Part shown: piece by piece, positions 47,094 to 56,894 of the stretch
Layout of the letters: every line of letters starts with the position of its first letter
Position numbering within the stretch: the stretch's first letter is position 1
Origin: Bacillota bacterium
GTDB taxonomy: Bacteria; Bacillota; Sulfobacillia; Sulfobacillales; Sulfobacillaceae
NCBI GenBank assembly: GCA_021784595.1
Contig: JAJYHT010000037.1
Span: forward strand, 1 to 64,000
DNA: 64,000 bases
Reading direction: 5' to 3'
Position numbers and translations under genes: made by a program
Notes under the pieces: model-generated
Database searches by the model: none
Told to the model about the DNA's origin: nothing
Seen by the model: only the letters and a program-made list of their open reading frames with translations

Positions 47094-47130
47094 AACCAGG
47101 GGCTGCACCCTCAAGGTGCGGCCCCTGGTT
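47094..47130 (+). terminator. Intrinsic terminator after the thiolase gene
   Basis: A 15-pair stem: 47094-47102 with 47122-47130 and 47105-47109 with 47115-47119, one C/G mismatch plus a G-T pair between, loop CTCAA, then a T-rich tail TTTATTT. The minus strand arm overlaps the end of the anti-sigma gene, so it probably works for both convergent transcripts. Confidence 0.9.
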
Positions 47131-48629
47131 TATTTAGACGTCGTGGGTGATGAAGGGGCCGCTTCCACGTAGATGTACCACCCAGAACTATAGCCGGCCA
47201 AAATTTGGTTGTTGCCGATAGTCTGTAATGGAGTGGCCGGGGCCGTATCAAGGCTCATAGTCGAGGGCGGTGCAATCACGCCCCATTGGCCGGAGGATTT
47301 CTGCCACTGGTAGAGATATCCGCCTGGAGCGCCGTAGACTAAGTTGCCGCTGGGGGTGGCCGCCAATTGTCCAATTCCGATATTGTTGGCTTGACCCGGA
47401 ACGGGCAGTATCATCCATTGCTGGCGGGTATCGGAATATCGCACGAGCACGGGATCTGTCAAATTAATCAGCGCAGAAATGGCTCCGGTGGGAGACATTA
47501 CCATGCTTGCGGGCGCGGCTCCCAAGGCGGGAAAGTTCGTCACTTCCGTCCAGGACGTGCCATTGTCGCGAGTTCTTAGCACAGGACCAATGCCGTTGCC
47601 GGAAACGGGCACCAAGGCGGCGGCAATCATCTGGGGATCTGCTGGATTGATTGCATAATCTTCCACTTGCCATCGGTTAGTGTTCAAGGTTAGTAAGGAC
47701 GTCCAGTGGCTGCCATTCGTGCTGGTCATTAAAGTGCCGTTAATAATGGCCCAATATTGGTGATGCATGGCGACCAGATTAGAAATGGCCACGGGGCCGA
47801 TGGCCCATGGTGTCCAATGTTTGCCGCGATCTGTGGTAATGTATCCGGTGCTTTGGCCAGAAGGATTTTCTTCCAACAACAGTGCTTGATCCGGATTGGC
47901 CGGCAAGGCTGAAATGGTGTCCGTCTGCGCAACCGTCGAGTTGCCTGGTGCACTAGCCCAATATGCGGTGGATTGGCCCGTCATGACGGTCCAGGTATTG
48001 TTGTGAGTCATGTAAATATTGGACCCCGCCGCGGCAAAGCTATTGATAGGCGTAAAGGTTCCAGTAATCCAATCGCCCTTGACCGGAGACACTTCGGCAT
48101 GGGTAGCGATGTTTTGGCCTGGGCCGGGCAATGACCCCAAAAAAGTGTATACGGGCATGCCTTGATTAAACAAGGTGCCTCCCATGACATGCTGATGATT
48201 GTTGAGTTGAATGGCCACAGAGGTTGCGGTCATCCCGTGAATGGCAAACCTTCCGCTAAGCGACAGGGAATGGCCAGTAGGCACCGCCATGGGATAGGTA
48301 TCATAAATGGGCGACATTCCTTCAACCGACCAATGTGGGCCAGCGTCTAGAGCGGTTAATACGCGACGCACCGACATCGGCATTGAATAAGATGCCAAAT
48401 TGGGATTGCCGGTTGACACTTGTCCGGGATGAACAGGAGAAACCAAGGGCAACGCGACTAAAAACAGACCTGCCGCGACCGCCATTGACCAGCCGGTCTT
48501 TTGCCACCGACGAGTGCGGGAAACCGCCATTTTAGCAGGATGCCAATCCGGATCGAACTTCAAGCCTAGTTCTTGCCCCAATGCTCGGTCAACAGCGGCG
48601 CCAACTCGGCTTTCAAATTCGTCGGTCAC
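47130..48629 (-). CDS. Membrane anti-sigma factor with extracellular beta-propeller
   Basis: A 499-residue protein with a short cytoplasmic N-terminus (about 45 residues), one transmembrane helix (about 46-64), and a large external region with Asp-box style repeats (TTDRGKHWTPW, STNGSHWTS, TRDNGTSWTEV) as in BNR beta-propellers. It is coupled to the ECF sigma gene by a GTGA overlap (GTG 48629, ribosome site GGAAGGAGGG six bases before). Position, topology and size indicate an anti-sigma factor in which the propeller senses an outside signal; sequence similarity to known anti-sigma domains (ZAS) is not evident. Confidence 0.75.
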   Translation of the reverse strand: MTDEFESRVGAAVDRALGQELGLKFDPDWHPAKMAVSRTRRWQKTGWSMAVAAGLFLVALPLVSPVHPGQVSTGNPNLASYSMPMSVRRVLTALDAGPHWSVEGMSPIYDTYPMAVPTGHSLSLSGRFAIHGMTATSVAIQLNNHQHVMGGTLFNQGMPVYTFLGSLPGPGQNIATHAEVSPVKGDWITGTFTPINSFAAAGSNIYMTHNNTWTVMTGQSTAYWASAPGNSTVAQTDTISALPANPDQALLLEENPSGQSTGYITTDRGKHWTPWAIGPVAISNLVAMHHQYWAIINGTLMTSTNGSHWTSLLTLNTNRWQVEDYAINPADPQMIAAALVPVSGNGIGPVLRTRDNGTSWTEVTNFPALGAAPASMVMSPTGAISALINLTDPVLVRYSDTRQQWMILPVPGQANNIGIGQLAATPSGNLVYGAPGGYLYQWQKSSGQWGVIAPPSTMSLDTAPATPLQTIGNNQILAGYSSGWYIYVEAAPSSPTTSK

Positions 48630-49147
48630 ATCAATCCCTCCTTCCATACCGGTTCAAGTTTTGGTTTTAAGTGCTGTCGTGCCCGATATAATCGGGTCTT
48701 TACTACTTGCTCGCTGACTCCCAGAGATTTTGCGGTATCCTTTAGTGAGCGGTCCATGTAATAAAAAAGCAAGATGCATTGTCGCTCAGGCACCGAAAGT
48801 TGCATAACCGCCTCCAAAACGGATTCGTCGTCCATTGCAAGTGTCGAGTCAGCCTGTGCACCTGCTTGCGTTTCCAAGTAGTCGGTCGGATCTTCGGGAT
48901 GCCGTTTGAAATATCGCATTCGGTCCCTACACAAATTGGTCACCGTGTGAAATAACAACGCGGGACTAAGCGTATCCACCCCATGCCGCGAAGCATGCCG
49001 CCACAATCGAATAAACGCCTCTTGCGCGACATCCTCGGCGTCGGGTCTGACGTGTAAGGTGACATAGGCATAACGCAATGCCTTGTCTGCATATTGGGCC
49101 ATAAATTGCGAAAACAATTCCTCATCGCGTCCGTTCGTGTTGAGCAA
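48626..49147 (-). CDS. ECF-type RNA polymerase sigma factor
   Basis: About 173 residues with sigma-70 region 2 (PDAEDVAQEAFIRLWRH) and region 4 (PERQCILLFYYMDRSLKDTA, recognition helix with EQVVKTRLYRARQ); no region 1.1 or 3, hence an ECF sigma. TTG 49147 abuts AAGGAG, giving unusual spacing; a later in-frame TTG (49117) is an alternative. It is controlled by the coupled membrane protein. The promoter 40 bases upstream has the same motif as those of two lipoprotein genes. Confidence 0.88.
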   Translation of the reverse strand: MLNTNGRDEELFSQFMAQYADKALRYAYVTLHVRPDAEDVAQEAFIRLWRHASRHGVDTLSPALLFHTVTNLCRDRMRYFKRHPEDPTDYLETQAGAQADSTLAMDDESVLEAVMQLSVPERQCILLFYYMDRSLKDTAKSLGVSEQVVKTRLYRARQHLKPKLEPVWKEGLM

Positions 49148-49186
49148 CTCCTTCGATCGGCACCCCAGTATTCATTCAATCAGCTT

Positions 49187-49213
49187 AACGACCACAATCT
49201 TTAAAAGGTTACA
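49187..49213 (-). promoter_or_regulatory. Candidate ECF promoter of the sigma/anti-sigma operon
   Basis: Minus strand TGTAAC (49208-49213), 17-base spacer, CGTT (49187-49190). The layout equals ECF promoters such as Bacillus sigma-X/W/V classes (AAC -35 core, CGT -10 core). CGTT lies 40 bases before the sigma start. Autoregulation is inferred. Confidence 0.7.
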
Positions 49214-49269
49214 ATATCGGGTCGCGATTCCGTACGACCCTATAATTATCTCCAATATTACGCCAAAGT

Positions 49270-49296
49270 GGTAACTTCTGCGACCACGGCGGCGTT
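49270..49296 (+). promoter_or_regulatory. Candidate ECF promoter of the divergent lipoprotein gene
   Basis: GGTAAC (49270-49275), 17-base spacer, CGTT (49293-49296), 37 bases before the ATG at 49333. Same GTAAC-N17-CGTT as the divergent sigma promoter, about 55 bases away. Confidence 0.7.
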
Positions 49297-49332
49297 TTGA
49301 AGTATTATAGAAGCCTGGGGGGAGAAAACTCC

Positions 49333-50466
49333 ATGCGAATTCGGGTAGCCAGTCATACCTGGGCGGTTGTTTTGGCTGCTAGCGTACTGGCCGGGTGTGG
49401 CATTCATTCCCAAGCCTCATCAACCAGCGCTCATCAAGCCTCTCAGTCAGCGAAATCGTCTATCACCATTGCCGATGGCCAAGTGTTCAAGTTGCCCGTG
49501 CCCACATCCTTCGATGTCGGTCGACCGGTGAGCGTGGCTGACACGCAACTGGGCATATTGTACATACTGCCTCCGCACTGGCTGTCAGCGCAAAACCCTT
49601 GGCAACTTTGGCTGGCGCCTGCCACGGGAGCCTCAGACATTTCCCGCGACAGCGTCTTGGTGGCTCAGTGGCACTTTGTTCATCAGACGCTAAGTATTGC
49701 CGATGTGACCCAAAATGTGGCCTTGATTGTGGCGTCGCCGACACCGGGCATTGTCTCCAACGCAGCGCTTTGGTCTGTCAACTTGGAAACCGGTTCGGTG
49801 GCCAAATTGCATACATGGAATCCATCGCAGTTGTCCGGTCCGCCTTTTGTCTCAGGTCGGGGTGTGGCAGCATGGTGGAATCCTGGGACGGCGACCGCCA
49901 CCACACTCAATTTAGTGAGTGGGGCTCGACAGACACTGGTAGGAGTGGCCAGTGCCCAGGCTTTAAGTTTTACTAACGGTGGACTGGCCATTAATGGCAC
50001 TCCAGTGGCATTGCCCTTTCTTAAACCATACAATCATACACTGCCGAAAGGATATCAGTGGGCTTATCCTGCAGGGGCTTTGAATCCCATTGTGGCGGTG
50101 CCCAAGTCGTGGATAATCCGATCATTTATTGGTCAAAATAGCATTGGCATCACGGCCAGTAATCCGAATCAACCATCCCAGCATATGGTGGCTAGCCTGG
50201 ACGCGTGCGTTGCTTGTTTCAGTCCGGCGAATAATACCGGCGTGAGTGGACCGGATAGTCCCTTGTTGGGCGTGCCGGTGGGCACCAAGTTTGTCTGGTT
50301 GTCGGACCATGCCGTGGCCTATACGTTGCCGGGCAGCGCCAATGCCACGGAATACAAACTGCAGGTTACAGAACCAAACGGTGGCGTGGTGGATGCATCA
50401 GTAACTTTGCCTGCTTCTTTAAAAAGGGAAGCCACCACAATTTTAAATTCATTGTGGTGGCCATGA
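49333..50466 (+). CDS. Secreted lipoprotein of unknown function
   Basis: A 377-residue lipoprotein: basic start, hydrophobic core and lipobox LAGC at residues 21-24 (VLAGCG), then a Ser/Ala/Gln-rich linker. The mature part has repeated W-containing strands (LWLAPATGAS, LWSVNLETGSV) that could be a beta-propeller, but no known family was recognised. GGGGGGAG precedes the ATG. Divergent from the ECF sigma operon and carries the same promoter motif. The last codons contain a terminator hairpin for the opposing gene. Confidence 0.82.
   Translation: MRIRVASHTWAVVLAASVLAGCGIHSQASSTSAHQASQSAKSSITIADGQVFKLPVPTSFDVGRPVSVADTQLGILYILPPHWLSAQNPWQLWLAPATGASDISRDSVLVAQWHFVHQTLSIADVTQNVALIVASPTPGIVSNAALWSVNLETGSVAKLHTWNPSQLSGPPFVSGRGVAAWWNPGTATATTLNLVSGARQTLVGVASAQALSFTNGGLAINGTPVALPFLKPYNHTLPKGYQWAYPAGALNPIVAVPKSWIIRSFIGQNSIGITASNPNQPSQHMVASLDACVACFSPANNTGVSGPDSPLLGVPVGTKFVWLSDHAVAYTLPGSANATEYKLQVTEPNGGVVDASVTLPASLKREATTILNSLWWP
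50431..50461 (-). terminator. Hairpin at the convergent lipoprotein / 3D-domain gene junction
   Basis: A perfect 11-bp stem (50431-50441 with 50451-50461; GCCACCACAAT / ATTGTGGTGGC), loop of nine. On the minus strand a T-rich stretch CCCTTTTTAAAG follows, so it probably terminates the minus strand 3D-domain transcript while lying in the lipoprotein coding region. Position overlaps the last Leu-Trp-Trp-Pro codons. Confidence 0.7.
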
Positions 50467-50470
50467 AGTG

Positions 50471-51235
50471 CTATTGGCCTAGAACATAAACGGTAACGGG
50501 TTGAATTCCGAAATTAGACACTACACCTGGGCTGGCATTCATGTAAATGTCGATGCGTTGCCCTTGAATGGCGCCGCCAGTATCCATGGCATGACCGACA
50601 AAGCCTCCAGACGGCAAACTCTGATCCTGGTATCCTTGAACATACACGGTCGACTTTAGAGGAATCACCGACGGGTCTACCGCAATCATGCCGGGTTGCA
50701 ACGGCTGTCCAAAAGCGTCTACTGGGCCATATGGATAGTTGTCCTGCAGACTTGGACCGTAAGCTGTGGCGAGCATGTGATAGGTGGCGATAATCGGTCG
50801 TCCATCTATGGTCGATGGGCTAGTGGTGGCGGCGATGGCGGCTGCGCTGGTCGAACTTGGCACATAAGCCGGAACCAAGCCAAATCCCGAAAGAATGTCC
50901 TGCCAAGTGACGGGATCAGCAACACCGGTTACGGGCAAATGCTGCGCTGCTTGAAAAGCTTCGAGGCCGGATTCAGTTTTGGGCCCAAACACACCATCGA
51001 TGGGACCCACCTGACTATACCCTAAGAGTTCTAGGTCGGCCTGCAGTGTCATCACCCAATGACCTTGGCTACCATAAGCTAATTGTTGTTGCATCGCTGG
51101 ATGCACTGCGGCTAGCGATTGCGTGGTAACTTGCGAGAGACTTGCGGCATAAACTGACGGAGCGGCCGCATTAATGCCTACCGCTGGGCCAACTGCTGCG
51201 AGACCCATTGCTAAACTCCATGTGGCAAAACGCAT
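50471..51235 (-). CDS. Peptidoglycan-binding and 3D-domain secreted protein
   Basis: A 254-residue exported protein: signal peptide (about 1-30), PG_binding_1 domain (QADLELLGYSQVGPIDGVFG), a linker, and a C-terminal 3D domain with the three Asp features (AVDPSVIPLKSTVYV, AMDTGGAIQGQRIDIYM). Related to Rpf/Sps-like wall-lytic enzymes of spore formers. GAGGAGGAG precedes ATG 51235. A c-di-AMP riboswitch precedes the gene, tying it to wall and osmotic homeostasis. Confidence 0.9.
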   Translation of the reverse strand: MRFATWSLAMGLAAVGPAVGINAAAPSVYAASLSQVTTQSLAAVHPAMQQQLAYGSQGHWVMTLQADLELLGYSQVGPIDGVFGPKTESGLEAFQAAQHLPVTGVADPVTWQDILSGFGLVPAYVPSSTSAAAIAATTSPSTIDGRPIIATYHMLATAYGPSLQDNYPYGPVDAFGQPLQPGMIAVDPSVIPLKSTVYVQGYQDQSLPSGGFVGHAMDTGGAIQGQRIDIYMNASPGVVSNFGIQPVTVYVLGQ

Positions 51236-51245
51236 TTTTTCTCCT

Positions 51246-51377
51246 CCTCTCGAGTAACGCCTCCGAGGTTAGCTGGCGGGTTCGGGCACGAGAGATACCC
51301 TACGAACGCAATCTCCATTCGATTCACCCCGTACCTTGGTTTCCCCGGTCGCCAAAAAGATGGCGATTAGGCGCTTT
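51246..51377 (-). promoter_or_regulatory. c-di-AMP riboswitch (ydaO-yuaA class)
   Basis: On the minus strand the leader contains the conserved ydaO blocks in order: CGGGGAAACCAAGG, ACGGGGTGAATCG, TAGGGTATCTCTCGTGCCCG, GCCAGCTAACCTCGGAGGCG, then CTCGAGAGG. This matches the Bacillus ydaO leader, including the CGGGGAA-CC, GGGGUGAAUC, CCCGAA-CCGcCAGCUAACCUCG segments. The 3' edge (CGAGAGG) runs into the ribosome binding site, so translation control is plausible. A TACAAT box upstream at about 51411 may be its promoter. ydaO RNAs bind c-di-AMP and switch wall-hydrolase genes off. Confidence 0.9.
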
Positions 51378-51637
51378 GACGATCCTAAAAGTGAAGTTTA
51401 CCCATGATTGTACAATTTGTCAGACAGCCAAATCGGGCTTCAGTCGTGTTACGCATATCCTTGTCGCCATAAGACGGACAACAAGAGAACCAGACAGGGA
51501 ATTTTGAAGTGATTCCAAACTTACGCACTATGTCCAAAGGTTAGCCAACATGACAATGGATGCAAAAATCGACAAAGTTTGGATTGTCCGGGCTAAAACA
51601 CGATAAAATAGGAGAGTGAAACAGAGGAGCGGTGTGT

Positions 51638-52177
51638 TTGGAAGGGAACGCGTTAATTATTCCGGTTCAATTGCCGGAACCGTTAGAGGCGATACGTCAA
51701 CAATATGATCCAGTTGGGTGTACAATACCTGCGCATATCACGGTCAGCTATCCATTTGCTGGACCAAGCGAACAAGTGCGCATGTCTTTGGAACTTACAC
51801 AGTTAGCGAGTCAGTTTGACCCGTTTGTGGCGAAGTTCCACCAGCTAAGTCAGTTTGACCAAGGCGAGCAAGCCATAGTCATCTTACGCTTGCGGCATTC
51901 CCGCCATTTAATGCATCTGTTTGATGAGGTGTGGACGCGGTTTGCCCAATACCCGCCATACCAAGGGCAACACCGAGCCATTATTCCACACATAACTATT
52001 GCCCGATTGTCAGCATCCTCGATGGATATGTTCGGACAAGTAAGCCAAATGGTGAATGCTTATCAGTCGCAACTTAGCTGGCGGGTCAACCACTTGATGT
52101 GGGTGATAAGCGGAGACGAACTACAGGTGAACCCACGTCAGTTTATTTTTCCTTTTAAGGGCGTATACATGCCCTAA
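51638..52177 (+). CDS. 2H phosphoesterase (2'-5' RNA ligase-like)
   Basis: About 179 residues with the two HxT motifs of the 2H superfamily: AHITVSYPF near residue 33 and PHITIARL near residue 117. Such proteins cleave or ligate 2'-5' or cyclic nucleotide bonds. Start is TTG 51638 (GGAG eight bases away); GTG 51632 is the alternative. The stretch 51378-51637 upstream holds no other gene; a TAAAAT box at 51604-51609 could be its -10. Followed by an orphan nuoF 23 bases later. Confidence 0.82.
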   Translation: MEGNALIIPVQLPEPLEAIRQQYDPVGCTIPAHITVSYPFAGPSEQVRMSLELTQLASQFDPFVAKFHQLSQFDQGEQAIVILRLRHSRHLMHLFDEVWTRFAQYPPYQGQHRAIIPHITIARLSASSMDMFGQVSQMVNAYQSQLSWRVNHLMWVISGDELQVNPRQFIFPFKGVYMP

Positions 52178-52200
52178 ATGCCATTATTAAGGAGTCTGTT

Positions 52201-53370
52201 ATGTCATTTATTATGTCCTCTGAGCCACTTGATAGTCCTGAGTTATATGCCCAATACCACGACCGTGGCGGTTATCATGTGGCCTGGACCCGTGTGAAGC
52301 AAATGTCTCCTGTCGAAGTGCGCCAAACGGTGCTGGCAGCGGGATTGCGTGGGCGTGGCGGTGCAGCATTTCCGACGGCGAAAAAATGGGAGCTGGCTGC
52401 CTCGGTGGACTCACCCACCAGAGTATTGATTGTTAACGGAGCCGAGGGAGAGCCGGGCTCTTTCAAAGACCGGACACTTATGACAGTATCCCCGCATCGA
52501 CTGATTGAAGGGATACTGATTGCATCCCATGCCATTGGAGCAACTGAGATAATCTTTTATATCAATGACCAGTTTGGTGACAGTATTAGGTCGCTGGAGA
52601 CGGCATTGAAGGAGGCCAGCTGCCAAGGGCTTCCGACCGATAGGATACAGTTGCGTCCTGAAACGCATACCTATATTGCCGGCGAAGAAACCGCGCTGAT
52701 TAACGCCCTAATGGGGCGTCCCCCACAGCCATGGCACAAACCTCCTTATCCTACGACCCAAGGCTATTTGGGATTGCCAACCGTGGTGAATAACGTGGAG
52801 ACGCTGGCGGTTTTGCCTTTGATTTTTGAAAAAGGCGTGCCGTGGTTCATAAAGCACCATCCCATGCTGTTTTCGGTCAGTGGTGATGTGAAAAATCCCG
52901 GGGTGTACGAGATGCCATTGGGGACGACTCTTGACCACCTATTGCGCAGTGCTGGGGGTCCATCCCAAGCAGGGATCCAAGCAGTGTTGCCAGGAGGGTT
53001 TTCCATGCCGTGGCTTACCGCCGAACACTTCAACGCAAATCTAGACTATGAAACGATGCGTCATCTCGGCACAGGACTGGGCGCCTCGGTTATTGTCCTG
53101 GGATCAGAACGTTCGCTCTATGACCAGAGTTGTGACATTGCGCAGTTTTTTGCGAGGGAGTCATGCGGCAAGTGTCCTTTGTGTGTTCGTGGCACCCGCA
53201 CCTTGGCAGAACAATTGGTTCTCTTGGGGAGCAATTTGACACCAGGTATGATCGCGGATTTGGTCCAGACGGCGAAAAAATTTCGTCATAAGGGCATTTG
53301 CTCCTACTTGGACACTGCAGCTCACATGGTGGAAAACTATGCTGTGAGCTTGGTAGCGCCCTCGGTCTGA
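52201..53370 (+). CDS. NuoF-like NADH-binding flavoprotein, orphan
   Basis: A 389-residue protein of the NuoF/HoxF family (FMN and NADH site and one 4Fe-4S cluster). Visible: GLRGRGGAAFPTAKKWE, the NGAEGEPGSFKDR glycine-rich segment, GEETALINALMGRPPQPWHK, GLPTVVNNVETL, and the Fe-S site SCGKCPLCVRGT. The usual NADEGEPGT reads NGAEGEPGS. No NuoE or NuoG homologues lie nearby, so it may serve in a separate electron-transfer complex. AAGGAG precedes ATG 52201. Confidence 0.88.
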   Translation: MSFIMSSEPLDSPELYAQYHDRGGYHVAWTRVKQMSPVEVRQTVLAAGLRGRGGAAFPTAKKWELAASVDSPTRVLIVNGAEGEPGSFKDRTLMTVSPHRLIEGILIASHAIGATEIIFYINDQFGDSIRSLETALKEASCQGLPTDRIQLRPETHTYIAGEETALINALMGRPPQPWHKPPYPTTQGYLGLPTVVNNVETLAVLPLIFEKGVPWFIKHHPMLFSVSGDVKNPGVYEMPLGTTLDHLLRSAGGPSQAGIQAVLPGGFSMPWLTAEHFNANLDYETMRHLGTGLGASVIVLGSERSLYDQSCDIAQFFARESCGKCPLCVRGTRTLAEQLVLLGSNLTPGMIADLVQTAKKFRHKGICSYLDTAAHMVENYAVSLVAPSV

Positions 53371-53513
53371 ACCTCAAATTGGGGTTGGAATCTTTTGGTT
53401 TACCGCGCGTTGTGCTATATTTAACAGAGGAAAAGTGTGGGGTGTCGGATACTTGGCGCTCCATGTGCGGTTGCAACAGCGTTGGCAAAGTCTGGTTTGC
53501 GGGGGGATATCCC

Positions 53514-53645
53514 ATGGACATCACGATTCCATTAGTACTGCTGATTTTTTTTGTGGGTTCGTTTTTTAGTGGCTTTATTATTGATAAATCGTATCATCCT
53601 ACCGAGTCAGAGCCCTATGAATTGGAACAAGAACGTCAAGGGTAA
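53514..53645 (+). CDS. Small single-helix membrane protein
   Basis: A 43-residue protein with one hydrophobic helix (residues about 5-23) and an acidic C-terminus. ATG 53514 has GGGGGGAT upstream. It follows nuoF by 143 bases, and a terminator hairpin stands 15 bases after it. Small size makes it less sure; it may be a subunit of the nuoF-linked complex. Confidence 0.5.
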   Translation: MDITIPLVLLIFFVGSFFSGFIIDKSYHPTESEPYELEQERQG

Positions 53646-53660
53646 GCACATAAAGTGAAA

Positions 53661-53690
53661 AACGGCCGCTCTCATCAAAGAGTGGCCGTT
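53661..53690 (-). terminator. Bidirectional-type hairpin
   Basis: A 12-pair stem (53661-53672 with 53679-53690; AACGGCCGCTCT / AGAGTGGCCGTT, one G-T pair), loop CATCAA. The T-run (TTTTTCAC) follows on the minus strand, so efficient termination is expected for transcripts coming from the right; on the plus strand no T-run follows. Confidence 0.75.
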
Positions 53691-54130
53691 GTAATTGTGA
53701 GGGGCTGGGAGGATCTCTCGCGCCTATAGCGCTCGGACTTTGGGGGAGGACGATTTGTCATCCGAGAGATGAAAGACGTACACCCTGTATCCATCATTGA
53801 CCACCAGCGGGTGACTCGTTTGATGGGCAAATTCGTGATCTTCTGGTGGGGCGACCTCTTCTTGCGAGGTGCGGTACGGCGCTTCCATTTCTTTTGTTGC
53901 GTTCTCAATCCTCGTCTTCTGCTCGTCCCCAAAGAGGCTGGCGTGGTCCGAAGTAACGCCACGGACCGCCATCATACTTCTGGAATCCACGGTTTCGACG
54001 CAGGTTCGATGAGCCAGTGTGTTGGCTAATGAAAGGGACAGGAAACTTTGAGGGCGTCCCCGAATCCCGCCTCAACCCCCACGGCGTTGGGTGCGGACAA
54101 GTTCATAATGCTGACTGTCGTATTGGACAA
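53691..54130. other. Remnant region before the IS, no confident gene
   Basis: No gene can be supported. The best open frame runs on the minus strand (53724-53990 and further upstream), rich in charged residues, but it has no ribosome site or known domain. When the IS and one target duplicate are removed, a minus-strand frame of about 70 residues spans the junction to about 56110. This could be the tail of an old, interrupted gene. I see nothing firm beyond that. Confidence 0.4.
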
Positions 54131-54135
54131 GAGCC
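54131..54135. repeat. Target site duplication, left
   Basis: GAGCC flanks the left inverted repeat; the same five bases stand at 56008-56012 right after the right repeat, as a direct duplication made by IS insertion. Confidence 0.85.
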
Positions 54136-54156
54136 TATGAGAGTTTTCATAAAGTC
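54136..54156 (+). repeat. Left terminal inverted repeat of the IS
   Basis: The 21 bases starting TATGAGAGTTTTC match the reverse complement of 55987-56007 without mismatch. Confidence 0.9.
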
Positions 54157-54301
54157 CTTGCCGTGCGGGATTTTAAGACTTGTTGGCGATTCTCCGCATT
54201 CGAAGCACCACTTTTTCGTAAACCATGCCCGAGTCGTGACAAACGACTCAAAATCTGCGACGATGGGTGAGTCAATCATCACCTCCTTGTCGGCTGCCGC
54301 T

Positions 54302-55753
54302 TTACGCAGCGGTGCGGATCCATGCCTCGTGGTGGGAGACCATGGCAGCGAGCGCTAATCGGGCATACCAGAGATAAGGCCGGCGATGATGCGCCGCCTT
54401 AATCCCGTGGGCGGTCCATAAACTAAAGGACCGCTCCACCCCGGTTCGCTCGTTATATAAGGTCGTCCATTCAGGCGTGCCGTACGGCACGCCACTGTCG
54501 GCATAGCGCGATCCCCGGGAATTGACCGTGACGGTTTTCTTGGCCTTGTCACAAGGATGAGAACACGGCGGGGCAGACTTCTGCCGCAGAGGACACCCAT
54601 AGACCATGACCCCTGGCCGGGGTTGCCCGATGCGCGGCATCGGGCGTGCGTCACCACAGAGGGGCTGATGGGTGTCGGAGAGCGTGACGCCAGCCGCGAT
54701 GGCGGCATCACTCACATGGGGTGGTTCGACCGGTTGCATGGGCGCAAAGGCCGGGATGAGTCCGCGTTGTCGAGTAAAGTCCCAGAGTGCTTGGACATCA
54801 TAGGCGGCATCCCCAATGAGATGGTTCATCGTGATGTTTGGCGTCTGATACAGGGTCTGCGTTTTCACGAGCAAATCGGGAAGGGCCACGCCGTCATGAC
54901 GATTGGCGGGATGCAGCGCCAAACTGACAATCAGCGGATGACTCGGTTGCCCCGGTACAGCATTCACCACGACCATAGCGGACGGGTCATAGCCAAAGTA
55001 ATACCGATTACGATGGCTATCCCATCCGACCAAAGCCATCGGATCGCTAAAGTACCGCAAACAGCCGCAGCCTCGCGTGGAACAGTCACAGCGTTTCGCG
55101 CCAAAACTGGACGCCCCACTGGCGATGGGTGAGCCATCCACAGCCAGATCCCACACCGACGGCAAGACACCCCGTTGCACACTGCCGAGGCTGGTTTCCG
55201 CTAAAAATCGGTCCCATAGGTCTCCGGGCGCCGGCCGGCGCCCGCGTGTGGCTTCGCGCTGGACCCGCCCGGCGACACGGCCAATGGCCCCGGGGCGGCG
55301 CGATGGCATTTTTTGACCCCGTTTCAATTTCAGTCGACGGCCGGAGGAGCGTCGCATGGCCCCCTGTCGAGGCATGGCTTCCGGATACAATCGCCGGAGG
55401 AAGGCGTAAAAGGTACTCACCGCCGGCACATCAGTCGGGCGATCCCACCCGCAGAGGTGGCACAGCCATACGGATTGGCGGAGCATCGCAACGCCATCCA
55501 CCAAGCTCGGGATTTGCCGGACGGTGATTAATCCCAGAGCCCGGAGCAGTTGAAACGGATCCGTAGCGGGGCGCCCTCGATCGATCGTATATCGCGACCG
55601 GGCCACTTGAGCCTGCGCGTCCAGCGTCGCCGCTAATGTCCACGCCGTTTCTTTGCTCCACGCGTTGCGATCCCCCCAGTCTTCGTTCCATTCGTGTAAA
55701 TCCTGTTGCACTTGCGCCCAGAGTTCGGCATCGGTCATCATCGTGCGCAGCAT
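54302..55753 (-). CDS. DDE transposase
   Basis: A 483-residue transposase filling most of the IS. Candidate catalytic residues are D in AVDGSPI, D in GDAAYD and E in NERTGVERSF, with a Cys-rich insert (CDCSTRGCGC) between them. The N-terminal part has Arg-rich DNA-binding helices. ATG 55753 is preferred since GGAGGGA lies a few bases before; ATG 55831 is in frame but lacks a site. Reading frame is uninterrupted. Confidence 0.88.
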   Translation of the reverse strand: MLRTMMTDAELWAQVQQDLHEWNEDWGDRNAWSKETAWTLAATLDAQAQVARSRYTIDRGRPATDPFQLLRALGLITVRQIPSLVDGVAMLRQSVWLCHLCGWDRPTDVPAVSTFYAFLRRLYPEAMPRQGAMRRSSGRRLKLKRGQKMPSRRPGAIGRVAGRVQREATRGRRPAPGDLWDRFLAETSLGSVQRGVLPSVWDLAVDGSPIASGASSFGAKRCDCSTRGCGCLRYFSDPMALVGWDSHRNRYYFGYDPSAMVVVNAVPGQPSHPLIVSLALHPANRHDGVALPDLLVKTQTLYQTPNITMNHLIGDAAYDVQALWDFTRQRGLIPAFAPMQPVEPPHVSDAAIAAGVTLSDTHQPLCGDARPMPRIGQPRPGVMVYGCPLRQKSAPPCSHPCDKAKKTVTVNSRGSRYADSGVPYGTPEWTTLYNERTGVERSFSLWTAHGIKAAHHRRPYLWYARLALAAMVSHHEAWIRTAA

Positions 55754-55941
55754 GGGATGTTCCCTCCGATTCAGATTGACTGTAAAATATTGCCAGTCAA
55801 CGAATTTTTGGGGACCTTTGCTCTTTGTCAAGTAATTAAGCCGATTTAATCGAAATAAATCCCGTCAGACGGGCTATTTCTCCGTCTACGAATTTTATTC
55901 GACATACCTCCCTTTCGGAGGATGACGTTGGTGTTAGAAAA

Positions 55942-55960
55942 CGCCTCCCGGCGGGAGGCG
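55942..55960 (-). terminator. Hairpin protecting the IS from outside transcription
   Basis: CGCCTCCC and GGGAGGCG form a perfect 8-bp stem with a GGC loop. On the minus strand the stem is followed by TTTTCT. It stands inside the right end of the IS upstream of the transposase, a place used by many IS to stop read-in transcription. Confidence 0.65.
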
Positions 55961-55986
55961 AAAACGTACGGATGATGCGGTCGCCA

Positions 55987-56007
55987 GACTTTATGAAAAC
56001 TCTCATA
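55987..56007 (-). repeat. Right terminal inverted repeat of the IS
   Basis: Complement of the left repeat, followed by GAGCC (56008-56012), the right target duplicate. Confidence 0.9.
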
Positions 56008-56152
56008 GAGCCTTGCTAGAAAAGGCAGGTATGAATATCCCTCCCCACCAAAATTATCGCCACGATGGGGGCTGTGTACGAGAATGTGGAGAGTTTTGAT
56101 AGGGATATTCGAGAATTCCAGCCATCAGGTGATCTATTAAAACATGGATAAC

Positions 56153-56177
56153 GTAACCTATTCCTCGCTTAGTCGTT
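56153..56177 (+). promoter_or_regulatory. Candidate ECF promoter of the second lipoprotein gene
   Basis: GTAAC (56153-56157), 16-base spacer, CGTT (56174-56177), 33 bases before the ATG at 56211. The same elements as at 49187-49213 and 49270-49296 with a one-base shorter spacer. It links the gene to the ECF sigma factor. Confidence 0.6.
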
Positions 56178-56210: not shown

Positions 56211-56894
56211 ATGAAATCAATTACGTTACTGGCAGTATGCATATTGGGCACTATGGCTCTTGCCGGATGTGGGGCTGCTGGTCCGGTTAGCGCTACCCCC
56301 ACCGGAAACGGTAATAGCCATATTTCGGGCCAAGCGCATATCAGTGGTGTCTCCCCTACGACCAGTACATCGTCATCAAATTCGTCAAGCATCTCCTCGT
56401 CACCCAGTCAGTTGACACCTGGTACGACTAGCACGTCTCAGTCAGCTACCATGTACTTAACCTATCACAATCCCTTGTATAATTTTTCGGTCAGCTACCC
56501 AACAACGTGGACCGAAAGCCCGCGTCCAAACGACGGAGATGGACGGTTGTTTACCTTTGACACGCACATTCCAACATTTTCGAATGGAGGTGGGTATGAG
56601 TTATATCCAAAATATGATGCAGTTATAGCCGCAATCGGTGTGTACAACGTTACGAACTTCACGTTTGACCAAGCGAAGAACCGACCCCAAAACCCAAACA
56701 TTACATCCTACCATGTTGTGAAAGTCTCGAATGGTTACGAAGTTCAAGAGACCCAAACGAAGGGCGATACGATTGCGTATAGCCTCGTGTTCTTTAATGC
56801 GACATACCAAAAACATCTGCAAGTGGTGGTGCCAAACACCGCTCCCTATCGAAAGATTGCCCGCGCCGTTTTACAGTCGTATAAGCCATTTTGA
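56211..56894 (+). CDS. Secreted lipoprotein with PsbP-like C-terminal domain
   Basis: A 227-residue lipoprotein: signal sequence with lipobox LAGC (residues 16-19), a Ser/Thr-rich linker (about 25-80), and a C-terminal domain (from MYLTYHNPLYNFSVSYPTTW) resembling PsbP/DUF1795-like beta domains by its YNFSVSYPTTW start. Function unknown. CAGGAGG precedes the ATG. It lies between an IS and a relic gene and carries an ECF-type promoter motif. Confidence 0.78.
   Translation: MKSITLLAVCILGTMALAGCGAAGPVSATPTGNGNSHISGQAHISGVSPTTSTSSSNSSSISSSPSQLTPGTTSTSQSATMYLTYHNPLYNFSVSYPTTWTESPRPNDGDGRLFTFDTHIPTFSNGGGYELYPKYDAVIAAIGVYNVTNFTFDQAKNRPQNPNITSYHVVKVSNGYEVQETQTKGDTIAYSLVFFNATYQKHLQVVVPNTAPYRKIARAVLQSYKPF

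Follow-up and report, generated by a model that had tools for sequence, protein, structure and literature searches.

The Bacillus subtilis sigma factors SigX, SigM and SigW combine the ECF fold with AAC/CGT promoters, autoregulation and envelope targets. To our knowledge, their anti-sigma factors contain no propeller, and lipoproteins do not form the bulk of their targets. We also know of no propeller in RseA of Escherichia coli. The E. coli RpoE response is likewise governed by an envelope-sensing, autoregulated ECF sigma factor and touches lipoproteins, with Lpp repressed via an sRNA (PMC8103513). In the experimentally tested pair Tt-RpoE1/Tt-TolB of Thermoanaerobacter tengcongensis, a 39-residue N-terminus binds the sigma factor, Tt-TolB has one membrane helix and a TolB-type external domain, and Tt-RpoE1 is autoregulated from the promoter tGTTAC-N16-CGTC (PMC3397946). 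In Listeria monocytogenes, the case of rsbW shows that start-codon strength can set the ratio of sigma to anti-sigma factor (PMC13068326).

We analyzed a 64-kb stretch of DNA, hereafter the window, from the genome of an acidophilic Sulfobacillus (Sulfobacillaceae). An ECF sigma factor gene is encoded on the minus strand (48626..49138, with the start re-assigned from the called position 49147 to ACG 49138). Both sigma domains score above cut-off (PF04542, residues 17-79; PF08281, residues 108-160), as does TIGR02937 (71.6 bits, cut-off 42.9), and only the sigma2 and sigma4 regions are present, as in group IV (ECF) sigma factors. Also as in group IV, an AAC (-35)/CGT (-10) promoter sequence, GTAACC-N17-CGTTAT, precedes the sigma orthologues, and the suggestion of the earlier note that the layout fits ECF promoters is supported. 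Positive autoregulation is indicated, at the level of sequence only, by the motif before the sigma gene itself in all orthologues. The protein resembles SigX, SigM and SigW in fold, promoter type, and predicted autoregulation and envelope targets, but it falls far under the NCBIfam equivalog cut-offs for SigW (71.0 vs 209), SigM (81.0 vs 190) and SigV (47.7 vs 190).

A gene for a probable anti-sigma factor (47130..48647, minus strand) overlaps the sigma gene by 22 bp, and a membrane protein gene overlaps or adjoins the sigma gene downstream in all orthologues. The N-terminus of about 50 residues is conserved (DRAL..LGL.F...WHP) and arginine-rich ahead of a single hydrophobic helix, after which comes a large external domain. 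From the charge distribution, the N-terminus is predicted to be cytoplasmic. It matched no known domain and was modelled with low confidence: AlphaFold gave a mean pLDDT of 77 overall, with low values for the N-terminal 86 residues, whereas the external part was confidently folded as a beta-propeller. The closest fold is YCF48 (2xbg, Foldseek E 2.4e-11); a PDB sequence search with the anti-sigma factor returned nothing significant.

The sequence, alignment and AlphaFold model together predict the architecture of Tt-TolB, namely a short N-terminus, one transmembrane helix and an external propeller. An ECF sigma factor gene, a downstream gene for a membrane protein (here a putative anti-sigma factor) and autoregulation, which is predicted here, also recall the described pair (PMC3397946). 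The propeller itself differs: there was no TolB match, and a weak BNR match and YCF48 as best fold place it in the YCF48/BNR type. The promoter also differs (GTAACC-N17-CGTTAT here, tGTTAC-N16-CGTC there), and the large lipoprotein regulon and ACG start reported below have no counterpart in the available portion of that article. We consider it likely, by analogy, that this system works like Tt-RpoE1/Tt-TolB with a propeller of another family.

Exactly three matches to GTAAC-N16/17-CGTT occur on the two strands of the window, 33-40 bp upstream of called starts. The first (49187..49212, minus strand, GTAACC-N17-CGTT) precedes the sigma/anti-sigma operon, with the called TTG at 49147. The second (49271..49296, plus strand, GTAACT-N17-CGTT) precedes the divergent gene for lipoprotein 1 (ATG 49333), and the third (56153..56177, plus strand, GTAACC-N16-CGTT) precedes that for lipoprotein 2 (ATG 56211). 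The positions and distances given in the earlier note (40, 37 and 33 bp) were confirmed, except that the sigma-side distance of 40 bp applies to the called TTG and becomes 48 bp at the likelier ACG start. With a position matrix trained solely on sigma-gene upstream regions of other genomes, the three sites rank first to third in the window, at 21.3, 15.7 and 21.4 in the order given above. The lipoprotein 1 site is marginal by score, because the best site of the reversed window reaches 15.1.

One alternative is that the three copies are chance matches. Shuffles of the window predict 0.54 copies per 64 kb with both strands and both spacings summed, and three of 100 shuffles contained at least three copies. 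Taken by itself the count is therefore no more than suggestive, and the odds argued previously for these copies were too optimistic for 64 kb. The genome and its relatives, however, support the conclusion that was drawn from those odds. Conservation before orthologues, a peak at the N17 spacing and a bias towards lipoproteins, all described below, make coincidence barely credible, and for the two N17 sites we reject it on these three grounds.

We compared 25 sigma orthologue loci, from the genome containing the window and 24 relatives. Every one of the 25 has the motif 5' of the sigma gene: there are 22 exact GTAAC-N17-CGTT sequences, one with N16, one GTAAC-N17-AGTT and one AGAAC-N17-CGTT. 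The promoter is retained where the surrounding upstream DNA has diverged, and the consensus from the other genomes is TGTAACC-N17-CGTTAT. Fourteen orthologues fetched later and excluded from every fit, a few of which share species with earlier loci, all have the N17 motif, one of them with AGTT. Homologues of lipoprotein 1 sit divergent from the sigma gene, with the motif 27-55 bp 5' of the start in 7/7 (our genome included), once as GAAAC. The genes matched to lipoprotein 2, often by the N-terminal segment alone, number 16 in nine genomes, and 13 of them are preceded by an N16 or N17 copy.

The genome as a whole contains 51 copies of the motif, 38 with N17 and 13 with N16. The other 21 spacings average 9.5 copies each, but spacings of the same codon phase are commoner, at about 14, which is therefore the fair expectation for N17 (Poisson p about 9e-8). 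Enrichment of N17 over other spacings is about 2.7-4x depending on this choice; we lowered an initial value of 4x to about 2.7x once codon phase was corrected (p about 1e-7). The N16 class is not enriched genome-wide (13 vs about 9.5 per other spacing), although the N16 copy in the window is backed by its gene family. N17 copies are mostly intergenic (28/38, against 20/68 for off-spacing copies). The remaining ten fall within genes, and background therefore makes up at least a quarter of the N17 list.

Gene positions around the matches were judged with a simple home-made gene caller, and the number of N17 copies that precede lipoprotein genes varies slightly between runs, from 9 to 12. In the automatic call, lipoproteins follow 9 of 18 start-proximal N17 copies, compared with 4 of 143 background genes (Fisher p 1.7e-7); with the window excluded, the proportion is 8/16 (p 6e-7). 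None of the 68 off-spacing copies precedes a lipoprotein gene. Direct reading of the loci gave 12 lipoproteins behind N17 copies (the window, L002, L008, L013, L015, L016, L091, L093, L094, L098, L099 and L101) and two behind N16 copies (the window and L028). The genome-wide spread of the motif is thus non-random, and the link that the earlier note had drawn between the sigma operon and the two lipoproteins gains support from cross-genome conservation, the N17 peak and the lipoprotein bias.

Enrichment also tracks the presence of the sigma orthologue. In 24 genomes with an orthologue and its GTAAC promoter, 631 N17 copies were observed against 196 expected per spacing, and N17 exceeds 1.5-fold in 22 of them. 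In four outgroups enrichment is weak (24 vs 16.5 expected), and there is none in G026 (1 vs 2.4), where the sigma promoter has the altered -35 element AGAAC. These patterns bear on which sigma factor reads the motif: a second ECF sigma factor encoded in this genome might be its main or an additional reader, with the local sigma one of several regulators. There are 11 ECF-like matches in the genome, and AAC/CGT promoters are widely common among ECF sigma factors (PMC8103513). More than one of the genome's ECF sigma factors could use these promoters. The GTAAC motif is absent, however, upstream of the five sigma paralogues that were checked in this genome, and together with the dependence on the orthologue this makes such a reading unlikely. 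A pair of conserved blocks a constant distance apart can also form an operator for a dimeric DNA-binding regulator. The blocks here are neither inverted nor direct repeats of one another; they match the known AAC/CGT layout and lie at the right distance from a start, with an ECF gene 3' in every genome. We regard an operator as very improbable. The three copies in the window are, from this sequence evidence, very probably promoters of a self-activating, envelope-sensing ECF sigma factor.

Transcription of about fourteen lipoprotein genes, and of further genes for the cell surface, is probably activated by the sigma factor. The gene for lipoprotein 1 (49333..50466, plus strand) encodes a signal peptide with the lipobox LAGC (residue 22), and that for lipoprotein 2 (56211..56894, plus strand) one with LAGC (residue 20) and an N-terminus related to lipoproteins in nine genomes. 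Both are predicted lipoproteins from the signal peptide with lipobox cysteine. Neither has a Pfam or NCBIfam match, PDB sequence searches returned nothing significant, and the structure model of lipoprotein 1 (mean pLDDT 62) is too low for interpretation. Also located 3' of the motif are genes for an L,D-transpeptidase-like protein with a wall-binding domain, a beta-N-acetylglucosaminidase, a sugar transferase, two GT87-like membrane glycosyltransferases and a MoxR ATPase. The proportion of lipoproteins among motif targets varies between relatives: 10/13 in G006 and 3/9 in G008. Most targets in G018 are exported proteins that lack a lipobox, which is present in 1 of 10, so the description as a lipoprotein regulon does not extend to every relative. 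The regulon appears to be unusually lipoprotein-rich in Sulfobacillus and the neighbouring genus g3.

Several further features of these loci were observed. Two predicted lipoproteins of the regulon (L015 and L099) carry YCF48/BNR propeller repeats similar to those of the anti-sigma sensor; that they share or compete for the ligand of the sensor is speculation. Members of the lipoprotein 2 family (L075-L090) have a common N-terminal segment, GCG..G.L.ATPTGNG....G..HTSG, with varied C-terminal parts, and most carry the same promoter. This family may represent a promoter-plus-anchor cassette reused across several genomes. Loci L013 and L018 have an identical N17 promoter sequence at C36 and C42 of the genome; a full lipoprotein gene follows one copy only, which suggests a decayed duplicate. 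In G015 (L072-L074), stops break the divergent lipoprotein 1 gene, and no antisense GTAAC promoter was found beside the intact sigma promoter. Within the window, an IS1182-like element (54136-56007) is inserted about 150 bp 5' of the lipoprotein 2 promoter. Its transposase gene (54302-55831), which scores far under the NCBIfam cut-off, lies between perfect 21-bp inverted repeats, and GAGCC at both flanks is likely a 5-bp target duplication.

The start of the sigma gene seems unusual. ACG is outside the standard set of bacterial start codons, almost never serves as a start, and initiates weakly in bacteria. Here, the codon at 49136..49138 (minus strand), proposed as the start from the orthologue alignment, is ACG in every one of the 21 orthologues aligned. 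Elsewhere in the sigma gene, uniformity at conserved four- or sixfold degenerate codons reaches at most 76%, and the codons for other conserved threonines are mixed. Among held-out orthologues the codon is ACG in 12 of 14, with GTG at exactly the same slot in L372. Across 38 distinct orthologues, whose slot codons were read by eye from the sequences, the slot is occupied by ACG in 25 and by CTG in four, and the others have GTG. The CTG slots belong to clade g4/g7/g11 and have an in-frame TGA just 5'; the GTG of family f2 is nearer its Shine-Dalgarno sequence, and its assignment to the slot is less certain. A Shine-Dalgarno sequence, AAGG(A/G)G, lies 8-9 nt 5' of the ACG in nearly all aligned orthologues (AAGGAG at 49148..49153, minus strand, in the window, 9 nt 5' of the ACG), and across the relatives the slot sits 8-10 nt after it. 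Residues 3' of the slot are conserved and those 5' are not. The simplest reading is that the conserved codon marks the start codon slot.

The ACG could instead be an ordinary threonine codon, with the sigma factor starting at a TTG or GTG immediately 3' of the Shine-Dalgarno sequence, or at an ATG further 5'. Many orthologues do have a TTG or GTG in frame at that position, and L366 has an ATG. Such a TTG or GTG would have zero spacing to the Shine-Dalgarno sequence, and L034, L035, L038, L040 and L047 lack it or carry it in another frame. In L041 a TGA follows it directly, an in-frame stop six bases 5' of the conserved ACG. Four orthologues (L035, L040, L041 and L047) have no in-frame ATG, GTG or TTG between the promoter and the conserved domain. 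The identity of the ACG in 21 of 21 orthologues while other threonine codons vary, and the occurrence of CTG or GTG in the same slot of other relatives, also make an ordinary threonine codon improbable. ACG 49138 is the probable start of the sigma gene, and the protein would then begin Met-Asn-Gly-Arg. A literature search for ACG starts in bacterial chromosomes found no paper on the subject.

With high confidence, resting on sequence comparisons throughout, we propose that an autoregulated ECF sigma/anti-sigma system governs a lipoprotein-dominated envelope regulon. The sigma factor would recognize GTAACC-N17(16)-CGTTAT. In the resting cell, the single-pass anti-sigma factor would bind it via the short cytoplasmic N-terminus, and reading of an envelope signal by the external beta-propeller would release it. 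Freed sigma factor would then transcribe its own operon, lipoproteins 1 and 2, about a dozen more lipoproteins, and wall and surface polysaccharide genes. Lipoproteins are apparently induced here, in contrast to the repression of Lpp in the E. coli RpoE response (PMC8103513). With the sigma gene starting at ACG and the overlapping anti-sigma gene at ATG or GTG, the weak start codon may keep the sigma factor below its antagonist. The balance of evidence leans slightly towards a sigma lineage (25/38 orthologues, at least eight genera, two families) that starts at ACG as a selected brake of this kind. As in the tuning of L. monocytogenes rsbW, a weak start codon would alter the sigma to anti-sigma ratio; there the weak codon arose by mutation of the antagonist gene under selection (PMC13068326), whereas here it would be a fixed property of the sigma gene across genera.

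In summary, the reading of the earlier note holds up, and the system is larger than that note described. It is probably a regulator of an ordinary kind with an unusual sensor and a conserved ACG start. If the ACG start is true, it is a naturally occurring, conserved start codon from outside the standard bacterial set, one that would be missed by annotation pipelines limited to that set, and it sits in a gene where weak initiation is functionally sensible. Species of Sulfobacillus are acidophiles used in bioleaching, and our text search of the literature found no paper linking Sulfobacillus with ECF sigma factors. The results would provide a sequence-defined envelope regulon with a precise promoter for Sulfobacillus, and would tie about fourteen lipoproteins, most of them without a known domain, to one regulator.
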